A stretch of 38,590 bases of DNA from an uncultured Mycoplasmatota bacterium (GTDB taxonomy: Bacteria > Bacillota_I > Bacilli_A > RF39 > UBA660). The notes below the pieces were generated by a model, which ran no database searches, was not told the DNA's origin, and saw only the letters and a list, made by a program, of their open reading frames with translations. The translations under genes were made by a program, and so were the position numbers. The stretch lies in NCBI GenBank assembly GCA_947643405.1, contig CANRVY010000015.1, positions 1 to 38,590 on the forward strand. The letters are read 5' to 3'. Positions 18,710-23,953 of this stretch are shown piece by piece (within the stretch, counting starts at the first letter, position 1; each line of letters begins with the position of its first letter).

Positions 18710-18738
18710 TAGTTAGACATAAGTCTAACTATTTTTTT
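18710..18738 (+). terminator. hairpin between ileS and tRNA-Leu, terminator-like only on plus strand
   Basis: TAGTTAGAC and GTCTAACTA (18710-18718 and 18723-18731) form a perfect 9-bp stem. The T run follows on the plus strand, so on the ileS strand it is a hairpin without T tail. It contains the TAG stop of ileS. It may stop antisense transcripts or mark processing between ileS and the tRNA. Confidence 0.5.
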
Positions 18739-21700
18739 ATTACTTCTAAATACACTTCATGTCCATTAATATCAAATTTATCTTTTAAATTTTCTTTATT
18801 TGTAATAGTAAGCGCTAAAGTTTCCTCTTTCATATATTCTAAGTTATTTGCAATCGCTTTTTCTACTTCTTCATCTGCTTTATAAGAAACTTCAATACGG
18901 TCTGTTATCTCAAAATCGCTTGATTTTCTAAGTTGTTGAATTTTAGAAACAAGTTCTCTAGCAATGCCTTCTTCAATTAAAACTTCATTCAATTCAGTAT
19001 TTAAAATGATAAAATTATTATTTAACATTCCTACATTGAACCCTTCTTTTGATTCGATTCGAATATCTATCATTTCATTCGTTACTTCAAATGCTTCTCC
19101 TGAAAGAGTTACAGTAATTGTTTCATTGTTCTGAAGCTTATTTATTTCTTCAACAGATAAGGAAGATAAAACATTTCCAAACTCTCCTACTTTTGGTCCT
19201 AATATTTTTCCAACAGTTTTAAAATTTGGTTTTACAATATAATTCATATAATGACTTAATTCATTTGTAAAAACTACTTCTTTCACATTTAATTCTTCTT
19301 TTATTAAAAGTGTTAAATCATTAATCAAATCCTTGTTCTTTCCATCTATTAATGCTTCACTAATTGGTTGACGTACTTTAATTTTCGCCTCTTCTCTGAC
19401 ATAACGTCCTAGAGAAATTAAGTCACGTACCAAATCCATTCGATTTTCAATTTTTTCATCTATCATATCTTCATCACAAATTGGATAGTCTTCTAAATGA
19501 ATAGATTCTTTATCTGTTAGAGCTCTATAGATTTCTTCTGTTACAAATGGTATAAATGGTGCAGCTAATTTACAAATGCCAAGCAATACTTCATAGGTTG
19601 TACCATAAACCGCTTTTTTACTGATTGTAAGTTCGCTTTCCCAAAATCTTCTACGATTTCTTCTAATGTACCAATTTGATAAATCTTCATTTACAAAATT
19701 GTTAATAGCACGCACTGCTTTATTGAGATCATATTCATCCATTGATTCTGTTACAAATTTTATAAGTTTATGATATTTTGATAACAACCATTTATCAATT
19801 TCTTCTAAATCTTTATAATCTACATGATAACTTCTTGGGTCTACTTCATCTGTATTGGCATACATTTGAAAGAACGTATAAGTATTCTTTAAAGTATTAA
19901 AAAATTTAGATTGCACTTCTTTTACTCCATCCTCATCAAATTTTAGAGGTGTCCATACTGGAGAAGCATATAACATGTAAAAACGAATTGGGTCTGCTCC
20001 AAATTTCTCCATTAACTCAAATGGATTAATTGCATTTCCTCTACTTTTATGCATTTTATGACCAAATTTATCTAACAACAAATCATTTACTAAAACATTT
20101 TTGTATGGTGTTTTTCCTGTTACAAATGTTGAGATTACAAGCAAAGAATAAAACCATCCACGTGTTTGGTCAATTCCTTCTGAAATAAAATCTGCTGGAA
20201 ATTGGCTTTCAAACAATTCTTTATTTTCAAATGGGTAATGATATTGTGCAAATGGCATAGAACCAGAATCAAACCAACAATCAATAACATCTTTGATTCT
20301 TGTCATTTCCTTTCCACATTCTTTACATGTGATATGAATGTCATCTACATAAGGTCTATGTAATTCAATTGTTTCATCAATTTTTTCTATTGCTTTCTCT
20401 ACTAATTCTGCTCTTGAACCAATCATTTCTTGGTGTCCACAAGAACATTTCCATAATGGAATTGGAGTACCCCAATAACGATTTCTAGAAATGGCCCAAT
20501 CATTCATGTTTTCTAACCAGTTTCCAAAACGTTTTTCTCCGACATAACTTGGATACCAATTTACTGTATTATTCTGTTCTACAATCTTATCTTTGATTGC
20601 TGTCGTTTTAATATATAAACTTGGCTTTGAATAATATACAAGAGGAGTTTTACATCTCCAACAATGTGGATAATTATGTACCATTTTTTGCTTTTTAAAT
20701 AATTTATCTTCTCCTGCCAAATATTTGATGATGTCTACTTCTAATTCTGAATCAACAACAAGTCTCCCTTTCCAAGGTCCTTCTGTATAACAACCATTTT
20801 CATCAACTGGATTTATCATAGGCAAATCATATTTTAATCCAACTTCATAGTCATCAGCACCAAATGCTGGGGCGATATGAACAATTCCAGTTCCGTCTTC
20901 CATCGTTACATAATCAGCGCATGTTACAAAGAACGCTTTTTTGTTTGTTTCAATAAATGGTAGCAATTGTTCATATTCTAAATGTTCCAAATCAGTTCCT
21001 TTGTAAGTTTCTACTACTTCATAGTTATCTCCTAATACTTTATCAGCTAATTTTTTTGCTACAATAAAATGATATCCTTTTGATAAACATTCTACATATT
21101 CTTCATTTGGATTTACACAAGCAGCCACATTAGCAATTAATGTCCATGGAGTTGTTGTCCAAACTAGTAAATACGTATTCTCTTTATTCTTTAATTTTAA
21201 AGGAACGGTTACTGTATTCACACTTACTTCTTTATATCCTTGTGCTACTTCATGACTTGCAAGTCCTGTTCCACATCTTGGACAATATGGTAAAATCTTT
21301 AATCCATCATAAATATATCCTTCATCAAATAGTTTCTTCAAAATCCACCATTCTGTTTCAATATAATTATTTTCATAAGTAATGTATGGATTTTTTAAAT
21401 CAATAAATTGTCCCATTTCAGTTGTGAAATCACGAAACGCTTTTTCATTTTTCCACACACTTTCTCTACATTTTTCATTGAACTTTTGAATTCCATATTT
21501 TTCAATATCATTTTTCCCTTCAAATCCAAGCTCTTTTTCAACTTGAACTTCTACTGGTAAACCATGAGTATCCCAGCCTACTTTTCTAAGTACACGATAC
21601 CCTTTCATTGTTTTATATTTACAAACAGTATCTTTTAGTAACTTCGCCATCATATGATGAATTCCAGGCATTCCATTTGCTGTTGCAGGCCCATCATAAA

Positions 21701-21824
21701 ATACAAAATCATCTTTTCTATTCTGAATACTTTTATTTAAAATATCATTCTCTTCCCAATATTGAGAAGTCTCATTTTCTAATTCACAATTTTTTCCTTT
21801 TTTTAATTCTTTAAATTTTTCCAT
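18729..21824 (-). CDS. ileS: isoleucyl-tRNA synthetase with GIHH signature motif (IleRS2-like)
   Basis: This is a full-length 1031-residue class Ia synthetase. It has the Rossmann core start FYDGPATANGMPGIHHMM, an editing domain with TTTPWTL and a GADDYEVG Asp, and the signature KMHKS (590-594). A tRNA-anticodon domain ends it. HIGH is replaced by GIHH (54-57), first His to Gly and Gly to His. Natural IleRS2 enzymes with this G-x-H-H swap have been described as hyper-resistant to mupirocin, so resistance is expected here (inference). Zinc pairs CPRCG, CWRC and CSCG/CKECG are visible. The start is the ATG at 21824, after AGGAGGG. It is translated 10 bases behind the exchanger gene and controlled by the same Ile T-box. 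Confidence 0.95.
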   Translation of the reverse strand: MEKFKELKKGKNCELENETSQYWEENDILNKSIQNRKDDFVFYDGPATANGMPGIHHMMAKLLKDTVCKYKTMKGYRVLRKVGWDTHGLPVEVQVEKELGFEGKNDIEKYGIQKFNEKCRESVWKNEKAFRDFTTEMGQFIDLKNPYITYENNYIETEWWILKKLFDEGYIYDGLKILPYCPRCGTGLASHEVAQGYKEVSVNTVTVPLKLKNKENTYLLVWTTTPWTLIANVAACVNPNEEYVECLSKGYHFIVAKKLADKVLGDNYEVVETYKGTDLEHLEYEQLLPFIETNKKAFFVTCADYVTMEDGTGIVHIAPAFGADDYEVGLKYDLPMINPVDENGCYTEGPWKGRLVVDSELEVDIIKYLAGEDKLFKKQKMVHNYPHCWRCKTPLVYYSKPSLYIKTTAIKDKIVEQNNTVNWYPSYVGEKRFGNWLENMNDWAISRNRYWGTPIPLWKCSCGHQEMIGSRAELVEKAIEKIDETIELHRPYVDDIHITCKECGKEMTRIKDVIDCWFDSGSMPFAQYHYPFENKELFESQFPADFISEGIDQTRGWFYSLLVISTFVTGKTPYKNVLVNDLLLDKFGHKMHKSRGNAINPFELMEKFGADPIRFYMLYASPVWTPLKFDEDGVKEVQSKFFNTLKNTYTFFQMYANTDEVDPRSYHVDYKDLEEIDKWLLSKYHKLIKFVTESMDEYDLNKAVRAINNFVNEDLSNWYIRRNRRRFWESELTISKKAVYGTTYEVLLGICKLAAPFIPFVTEEIYRALTDKESIHLEDYPICDEDMIDEKIENRMDLVRDLISLGRYVREEAKIKVRQPISEALIDGKNKDLINDLTLLIKEELNVKEVVFTNELSHYMNYIVKPNFKTVGKILGPKVGEFGNVLSSLSVEEINKLQNNETITVTLSGEAFEVTNEMIDIRIESKEGFNVGMLNNNFIILNTELNEVLIEEGIARELVSKIQQLRKSSDFEITDRIEVSYKADEEVEKAIANNLEYMKEETLALTITNKENLKDKFDINGHEVYLEVIKK

Positions 21825-21834
21825 AAAAACCCTC

Positions 21835-22800
21835 CTAACCAAATATTACATATGCATAATAAGTAATAAACGTAAATATCATGATAATTCCTTCTTTTTT
21901 GCTAATCACTTTGTCATTACTTGCTGCTACAAAAAGCATAAGTGCTGAAACAAGGAATAAAACCAAATCAACATAAGAGAAACCAACGCCTGATATTCCA
22001 CCAAATATGGCAACTGGTAATCCCAAAACAATCCCAATATTAAAGATGTTACTTCCGATAATATTCCCAATTAATAAATCTTGTTCTCCTTTTCTAGCCG
22101 CCACTACTGATGTAACTAGCTCAGGAAGTGATGTTCCAAGTGCGATTACAGTAAGCGCTATCATTCTTTCACTCACTCCTAAAAACTCTGCGATACTAGA
22201 AGCACTTTCTACTACAAAATGACTTCCAGCCATTACCCCAATCAATCCTAAAAAAGTGAAAATGATAGATTTATACATTGGATATTTTGGATTATCTTCT
22301 AATGTATTTGGATCATCTACTTCCTTTTTCTTTCTAATAATTGAAAATAAATAATAAATAAAAACCATAAAAAACAATAAAATAACGAATCCATCAGAAT
22401 GACTAATCATATTGACTTGACTTTGATCAAATAAACTATCTACAAATAAAGTCACTAACAATAACGATAACATAATTGTAATTGGTAATTCTTTTCTAAT
22501 TGTATTACTTTTTACTCTAAGTGTACAAAATAAACTAGATACTCCTAATATTAATAATATGTTGATAATATTACTTCCAATCACATTTCCCAAAACCATA
22601 TCTCCACTATTAGACATCAAAGCCTTAAAAGATACCGCTAATTCTGGAGCACTTGTCCCAAAGGCTACAATGGTAAGCCCTATTACTAATCTTGAAATAT
22701 TTAAATTCCTAGCAGTAGAAGATGCTCCATCTACAAAAACATCAGCACCTTTAATTAATAACAAAAATCCTACAATTAAAATTAATATTTGTAATAACAT
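21835..22800 (-). CDS. Na+/Ca2+ exchanger, CaCA family (YrbG-like)
   Basis: The 321-residue membrane protein has the two inverted-repeat alpha motifs of the CaCA superfamily: GTSAPELAVS with GNVIGSNIIN, and GTSLPELVTS with GNIIGSNIFN. About ten TM segments are split by a hydrophilic loop (around 170-190). It would export Ca2+ in exchange for Na+ across the cell membrane. The ATG at 22800 is chosen because AGAGGG lies just upstream; the longer frame reads through the T-box antiterminator. It is the first gene behind an isoleucine T-box and precedes ileS by 10 bases. Amino-acid control of a Ca2+ exchanger is unexpected. Confidence 0.92.
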   Translation of the reverse strand: MLLQILILIVGFLLLIKGADVFVDGASSTARNLNISRLVIGLTIVAFGTSAPELAVSFKALMSNSGDMVLGNVIGSNIINILLILGVSSLFCTLRVKSNTIRKELPITIMLSLLLVTLFVDSLFDQSQVNMISHSDGFVILLFFMVFIYYLFSIIRKKKEVDDPNTLEDNPKYPMYKSIIFTFLGLIGVMAGSHFVVESASSIAEFLGVSERMIALTVIALGTSLPELVTSVVAARKGEQDLLIGNIIGSNIFNIGIVLGLPVAIFGGISGVGFSYVDLVLFLVSALMLFVAASNDKVISKKEGIIMIFTFITYYAYVIFG

Positions 22801-22821
22801 ACTTTCCCTCTTTCTATATAT

Positions 22822-23010
22822 AAAAAAGCTCATCCTATCTAAGGACGAGCTTTCTACCCGTGGTACCACCTTAATTAATACTCAAAACTATAACGCGTTA
22901 CCGTTTCTACCTTCATAGAAAACATCTAGAGTGATTTATATATAATTCCTAGTTTCGTTTTCATCAACCACGAACTTTCTTTACTATTTCTTATATATCG
23001 TCTCTATCAA
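22822..23010 (-). promoter_or_regulatory. T-box riboswitch, isoleucine-specific
   Basis: The leader has a Stem I whose base TAGAG/CTCTA closes a specifier loop reading ATC followed by A, which fits Ile. AAGGTGGTACCACGGG is the canonical antiterminator/T-box. A strong terminator (22825-22835 pairing with 22843-22853, then T6) completes it. Uncharged tRNA-Ile should bind and let transcription pass into the exchanger gene and ileS. No clear promoter is seen in front of it; transcription may start in, or run through from, divIVA. Confidence 0.92.
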
Positions 23011-23016
23011 ATGTTT

Positions 23017-23475
23017 TTAAAATTCTATTTTATCTATATCATTTACCATTTCTAATTGAGTTTCTACTACATCACGTAATCTTCTTTTGAAAACAGTCAT
23101 ATTTCGTCTTAATTGACTTGCCTCTTGTTCTGTTTTTTCTGCTCTTAGTAATGCTTCATTAATAATGCGACTAGCGTTCCTTTTAGCATCTTCTAAGATA
23201 ACATCACTTTCTCTATGAGCAGCTACTTTCATTTGGTCAGATGTTTTTTGAGCCATCATAATTGCTCTGTTTAAAGTGCCTTCCATATTTTCATATTGTC
23301 CTAGTCTTGCTTTTAAAGAAGCATTTTCTTGTTCCAAGCTTTGTAAAGCTGCGATTCTTTGGTCTTTTAATTTTAGCTCTGCAACCATTTTTTCTACTTG
23401 GTTAATTACTTGATCCAAAAAGGCATTTACCTCTATTGGGTCATAGCCGCGAAGTGTTCGATTAAATTTTTCCAT
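23017..23475 (-). CDS. divIVA: DivIVA-like cell-division/polarity protein
   Basis: The 152-residue protein has the DivIVA N-terminal membrane-binding signature (FNRTLRGYDPIEVNAFLDQV) and then a long coiled coil (about 25-150) rich in Glu, Gln and Arg. DivIVA binds curved membrane at septum and poles and recruits division or wall-synthesis partners. The ATG at 23475 is chosen because AGGGGTG lies just upstream; the frame continues further but without an SD. It lies 25 bases after sepF coding, in the same unit, and is followed by the Ile T-box and ileS, as in many Bacillota. The ylmG and ylmH genes usually between sepF and divIVA are absent. Confidence 0.92.
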   Translation of the reverse strand: MEKFNRTLRGYDPIEVNAFLDQVINQVEKMVAELKLKDQRIAALQSLEQENASLKARLGQYENMEGTLNRAIMMAQKTSDQMKVAAHRESDVILEDAKRNASRIINEALLRAEKTEQEASQLRRNMTVFKRRLRDVVETQLEMVNDIDKIEF

Positions 23476-23536: not shown

Positions 23537-23953
23537 CTACCACTCTAAATTGATATCGTGATTATCGTGAATATCTTTTCCCTCTGTATCATCAGTAATT
23601 TTTCCTTGAATATTGATATTATTTGGTGTACATAAAAAGATCCCTCCACCAATTTTTTGGATGTCTCCACCGATTGCATAAATTGTTCCACTTAAGAAAT
23701 CAACAATCCTTTTGGCTTGATCAGAAGTTACTCTTTTTAAATTCACAACTACAGTATTCCTTGATTTTAAATGATCAGCGATTTGCTGAGATTCAGAATA
23801 AGCTCGTGGTTCTAACAAAATCATCTTCGCTCCACCATTATTCTCTGCTAAAGCTGCTTCTGTTGTCACTTCATAATATTGGTCACTATTTTCTGAATTT
23901 CCAAAAATATCTGGTTCTTCATCATTAAACCATTTTTTTAAACTGAATGCCAT
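23537..23953 (-). CDS. sepF: cell-division protein SepF
   Basis: The 138-residue protein has the SepF pattern. An amphipathic N terminus (MAFSLKKWF) could bind membrane. After a low-complexity linker comes the SepF domain (about 42-118) with [37 protein letters not shown] and [10 protein letters not shown]. SepF anchors and bundles FtsZ at the septum. AGGAGG precedes the ATG and a -10 TATAAT lies at 23986-23991. It forms an operon with divIVA. Confidence 0.93.

Follow-up and report, generated by a model that had tools for sequence, protein, structure and literature searches.

We analysed a 38,590-nucleotide contig (the window) in which the gene for a CaCA-family Na+/Ca2+ exchanger lies between an isoleucine T-box leader and ileS, the gene for isoleucyl-tRNA synthetase. 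This arrangement is genuine and is shared by many genera, and the locus is probably an ordinary tRNA-Ile-sensing ileS T-box operon in which the exchanger rides as a passenger in first position. Read along the minus strand, sepF (23537-23953; PF04472, 1.2e-29) comes first, followed by a divIVA-like gene (23017-23475; PF05103, 4e-28) that immediately precedes the T-box leader, then the leader itself, the exchanger gene (21835-22800) and, as the second gene of the operon, ileS (18729-21824; 1031 aa; TIGR00392, 960 bits), the single IleRS gene of the genome. An earlier sequence-only reading of this DNA had described the exchanger as the first gene with ileS 10 bases behind it, which these coordinates bear out.

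The leader extends on the minus strand from Stem I to the terminator over positions 22822-23019, as delimited by the Rfam covariance model RF00230 and the fold, its 5' start coinciding with the divIVA stop codon. RF00230 matches at 22838-23019 (minus strand) across the full model (1-219) with 89.8 bits and an E-value of 2.2e-20; this falls 3 bits short of the gathering score of 93, and the same leader in close relatives reaches 95-113 bits (five at 106-113, two at 95). The fold energy of the leader corresponds to a z of -4.1, more stable than all 200 shuffled sequences. An antiterminator at 22841-22872 contains the T-box core AGGTGGTACCACG (22859-22871) and a UGGU bulge complementary to the ACCA of tRNA-Ile. 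Sequence and minimum-energy fold place a competing intrinsic terminator, AAAGCTCGTCCTTAGATAGGATGAGCTTTTTT, at about 22822-22853; it is followed by a T run and shares CTCGTCCTT with the antiterminator, so that the two structures are predicted to be mutually exclusive. A simple terminator scan did not include this terminator among its calls. The canonical T-box and terminator proposed in the earlier reading were thus both recovered, and its span of 21835-23010 takes in the exchanger and the leader except for a slight clip at one end, since the leader reaches 23019.

The covariance-model fold that had been suggested as a check also positions the specifier codon, AUC (Ile), at 22933-22935 on the minus strand, with A as the next base. 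This agrees with the ATC that the earlier reading had assigned and considered fitting for ileS. All 72 related leaders carry ATC at this position and none a non-isoleucine codon (71 were read by script and the last, which is clipped by a contig end, by eye), and the base preceding the ATC varies between G, A and T. Among the loci read, the genome has one tRNA-Ile(GAU), with A73 and an A-CCA end that would pair with the UGGU bulge. Specificity of the leader for isoleucine is a firm prediction because of the invariant ATC, the variable base before it and a tRNA-Ile(GAU) ending in A-CCA; the alternative specifiers AAU and UCA are ruled out by the same invariance and the variability of the preceding base.

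The exchanger gene encodes 321 aa and starts at the ATG at 22800; a longer GTG open reading frame begins within the leader. Its product scores 248 bits against TIGR00367 (cut-off 179.65) and 214 bits against PF01699 (9e-64; cut-off 24.9), has both GTSxPE motifs of the two inverted alpha-repeats (GTSAPE and GTSLPE) and can be aligned over its whole length with NCX_Mj, repeats included (E 1e-37). D240 of NCX_Mj is N in the window's protein and likewise in most relatives. By profile and motif, the protein is a full-length member of the CaCA Na+/Ca2+ family, with Ca2+ transport as its predicted activity, and it is the only CaCA gene in the genome, present in a single copy.

The exchanger is present throughout the genus, in all six of its genomes, and the order sepF-divIVA-T-box-exchanger-ileS is found in each of the five besides the window's. 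In a survey of 145 genomes of the UBA660 family, nearly always one per genus, 71 gave an exchanger match and 24, essentially 24 genera, have the gene immediately 5' of ileS in the same orientation, with a gap of 11-130 nt. The survey of relatives proposed in the sequence-only reading therefore finds the arrangement in close relatives and beyond, and this recurrence across six genomes of one genus and 24 genera rules out chance or an assembly artefact of one genome. A wider scan of named genome contigs yielded many more exchangers in gut-type Bacilli/Tenericutes MAGs, or in contigs labelled as such. An exchanger of another subgroup precedes ileS at one locus (L097), where the contig ends 111 nt upstream. 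Other families of the class contributed roughly 17 exchanger loci, and not one of them was linked to ileS or to a T-box. Seven contigs labelled Candidatus Saccharibacteria (L146, L148, L157, L172-L174 and L179) have exchangers 53-57% identical to the window's, with neither T-box nor ileS, possibly reflecting gene transfer or MAG mislabelling.

The ownership of the leader was assessed on a set of 142 distinct exchanger proteins. T-box leaders precede 68 of these; ileS follows within 1.4 kb downstream in 66 and the contig ends in the other two, so that a T-box before an exchanger is accompanied by a downstream ileS in 66 of 66 testable cases. A T-box core was found upstream of none of 70 exchangers located away from ileS, and a separate Rfam scan, covering 20 of these unlinked loci, likewise detected no T-box. 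Conversely, 106 family ileS genes have no exchanger: in 81 the T-box stands directly in front, in 11 another gene intervenes, 12 have no good core (several of these show a core with two mismatches at the usual distance) and two are cut off. These comparisons assign the T-box to ileS, with the exchanger lodged behind it, because T-box-exchanger pairs always come with ileS, unlinked exchangers have no T-box and 81 T-boxes adjoin ileS directly. The last group also upholds the proposal that the exchanger sits within an otherwise direct divIVA-T-box-ileS order. Acquisition of a T-box by the exchanger itself is ruled out, as none occurs on any of the 70 exchangers away from ileS. In relatives with wide exchanger-ileS gaps we found no second T-box, and several of the gaps contain a small open reading frame; at four loci (L109, L155, L160 and L170) a conserved small frame encodes about 50 aa and ends in basic residues (...KAKRK or KTKKRK).

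No other gene fills this slot nearly as often as the exchanger, which occurs in 24 genera, compared with single cases of the others and two of CYTH. The other occupants are CYTH, GNAT, Fic and DUF362-ferredoxin genes, small open reading frames and proteins without a Pfam match. Proteins of about 110 aa without a Pfam match occur in the ileS operon of several genera (at 6934-7266 in L123, and between T-box and ileS in L189 and L274) and have a motif resembling REYGFTDGYSG or REEGFKDGFLG. Of eight T-box operons that we inspected in the window's own genome, four have an unrelated protein-coding gene between leader and synthetase gene: besides exchanger-ileS, these are an HD-domain gene before valS, a gene for a 114-aa membrane protein before leuS and a dUTPase gene before metG (L002, L003 and L005, on contigs C19, C27 and C13). 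Together, the varied occupants of the ileS slot and the unrelated first genes before valS, leuS and metG make such passengers a general habit here and lessen the need for a special link between Ca2+ and isoleucine.

The linked state has been gained or lost repeatedly, with at least 13 changes on the exchanger tree and at least 15 on the IleRS tree (FastTree topologies in which some branches are weak), and linked members occur in both deep IleRS clades. An IleRS type only ~32% identical to the window's follows the same T-box-exchanger head at several loci (L032/L143, L063/L154, L107, L108, L123, L163, L167 and L289), a pattern that resembles an exchange of the synthetase gene behind the leader. 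Within the window's own genus, two loci (L013 and L014) have exchangers 85-86% identical to the window's and adjoining ileS genes at ~61-67%, compared with 93-100% for ileS in sister species, which on these identities is a replacement of ileS within one genus. Some single leaders are followed by a tandem duplication of the exchanger.

On the molecular level, charged tRNA-Ile would leave the terminator at 22822-22853 in place and transcription would end before the exchanger, whereas uncharged tRNA-Ile(GAU) would pair with the AUC specifier and the UGGU bulge, stabilise the antiterminator and give rise to a bicistronic exchanger-ileS mRNA. Antitermination is expected here by analogy with the established T-box mechanism. 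Co-transcription of the two genes is suggested by the 10-nt gap between the exchanger stop and the ileS start, which includes GGAGGG, by the lack of any terminator between them in a scan of the window and by the lack of a surplus of promoter-like sites. If antitermination and co-transcription both hold, induction of the exchanger under isoleucine starvation follows as a direct prediction. The genes might instead be effectively uncoupled, either by a promoter inside the exchanger that drives ileS or by a promoter in the leader region that bypasses the terminator, leaving the exchanger outside T-box control. Two promoter-like sites with 9/12 matches do lie on the coding strand inside the exchanger (22593-22565 and 22527-22499), but the number of such sites equals the shuffled expectation (13 compared with 12.0, sd 3.3), the spacer in relatives is also short, usually 10-30 nt, and a promoter-like pair stands just upstream of the leader in 57 of 72 relatives against a shuffle mean of 17. 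We consider such uncoupling improbable. The same count shows no excess that would betray the independent exchanger/ileS promoter named by the sequence-only reading as grounds for rejection, although an internal promoter is still conceivable.

A further question is whether control by the T-box is of use to the cell. The earlier reading had proposed that Ca2+ export physiologically answers isoleucine starvation, a proposal that goes beyond the data, given that roughly one in two related exchangers is located elsewhere and has no T-box, that unrelated genes occupy the same slot and that three more synthetase T-box operons have unrelated first genes. Selection could nevertheless retain the exchanger under the isoleucine T-box if Ca2+ extrusion were useful when translation stalls without Ile-tRNA, for instance because of a shift in membrane potential or in the Na+ gradient during starvation. 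The recurrence of the linked state in both deep IleRS clades with its many changes, the persistence of the pairing through the swap to the ~32% identical IleRS and across lineages within a genus (L013/L014), and tandem exchangers behind one leader speak for such selection, yet a loosely held passenger predicts many state changes equally well, the 70 exchangers elsewhere have no T-box, the pairing is absent from most family genomes and from all of the about 17 exchangers in other families of the class, and unrelated passengers are found in this and other T-box slots. We judge selected coupling of this kind to be unlikely, and it is quite unlikely that cells of the family purposely link the extrusion of Ca2+ to the charging of tRNA-Ile, with selection keeping the exchanger in the isoleucine T-box regulon and amino acid starvation altering calcium homeostasis. 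A transporter that moves not Ca2+ but a substrate of isoleucine or branched-chain metabolism would make the T-box cognate, as T-boxes often mark cognate amino acid transporters and even NhaC-family cation antiporters have been read in this way (PMC2494555). The strong full-length TIGR00367 match, the paired GTSxPE motifs and the NCX_Mj alignment, the presence of the same motifs in most unlinked homologues and a T-box that never accompanies the exchanger without ileS, unlike those of true amino acid transporters, render this highly improbable. The passenger explanation fits better than physiological coupling of Ca2+ and isoleucine: the cell would tolerate, but not need, T-box control of the exchanger, and the operon would provide steady, growth-linked expression with no calcium-isoleucine signal being necessary. 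A purely idle passenger is a less comfortable description, as a neutral gene would not obviously be so favoured as to be the commonest insert, change state repeatedly, survive IleRS replacement and be found in tandem copies.

With respect to known systems, an ileS T-box is present in nearly all Firmicutes (Wels et al. 2008; PMC2494555), and the leader described here resembles the Bacillota ileS leaders (RF00230; Staphylococcus aureus, Bacillus) in its Stem I with an AUC specifier, T-box core, terminator and ileS, but differs in the ion-exchanger gene between leader and ileS. Synthetase genes in second position are likewise known: Wels et al. 2008 (PMC2494555) describe this as a frequent place for cysteinyl- and asparaginyl-tRNA ligase genes in T-box operons, although the first gene there is not described as a Ca2+ exchanger. 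The same study lists NhaC-type antiporters under T-box control and reads them as amino-acid transporters (PMC2494555, table); these are also of a cation antiporter family, but NhaC is a different family and the T-box here is that of ileS. Bacterial CaCA exchangers (TIGR00367/YrbG-like; NCX_Mj) share the full-length homology and motifs, whereas none sampled from other families of the class has the T-box/ileS linkage. Wels et al. 2008 (PMC2494555) do not mention a calcium exchanger, and neither calcium nor an exchanger is listed in the main text of a more recent regulon survey (PMC3766115). A search of freely accessible papers brought up no account of a calcium exchanger associated with a T-box, or of an exchanger paired with ileS. 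The pairing thus appears to be undescribed, while T-box synthetase operons as a kind are already known. Should the exchanger obey the T-box, translational stress would control calcium export across a large group of uncultured gut Bacilli, a link of which we found no description. Even when regarded as a passenger, the exchanger illustrates that a T-box before a transporter is no proof of cognate amino acid transport, and that the T-box-synthetase slot in this family repeatedly takes up unrelated genes.

Another T-box operon of the same genome (L001, on contig C44) begins with an asparagine leader at 1501-1715, which scores 133 bits and has an apparent AAC specifier; behind it come two tRNA-Asn(GUU) genes (1734-1809 and 1816-1891) and then asnS, from about 1959. 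As the tRNA-Asn genes lie between leader and asnS, the sensed tRNA is encoded inside its own T-box operon. Two other genera (G030 and G024) have the same leader and tRNAs, with 78% identity.
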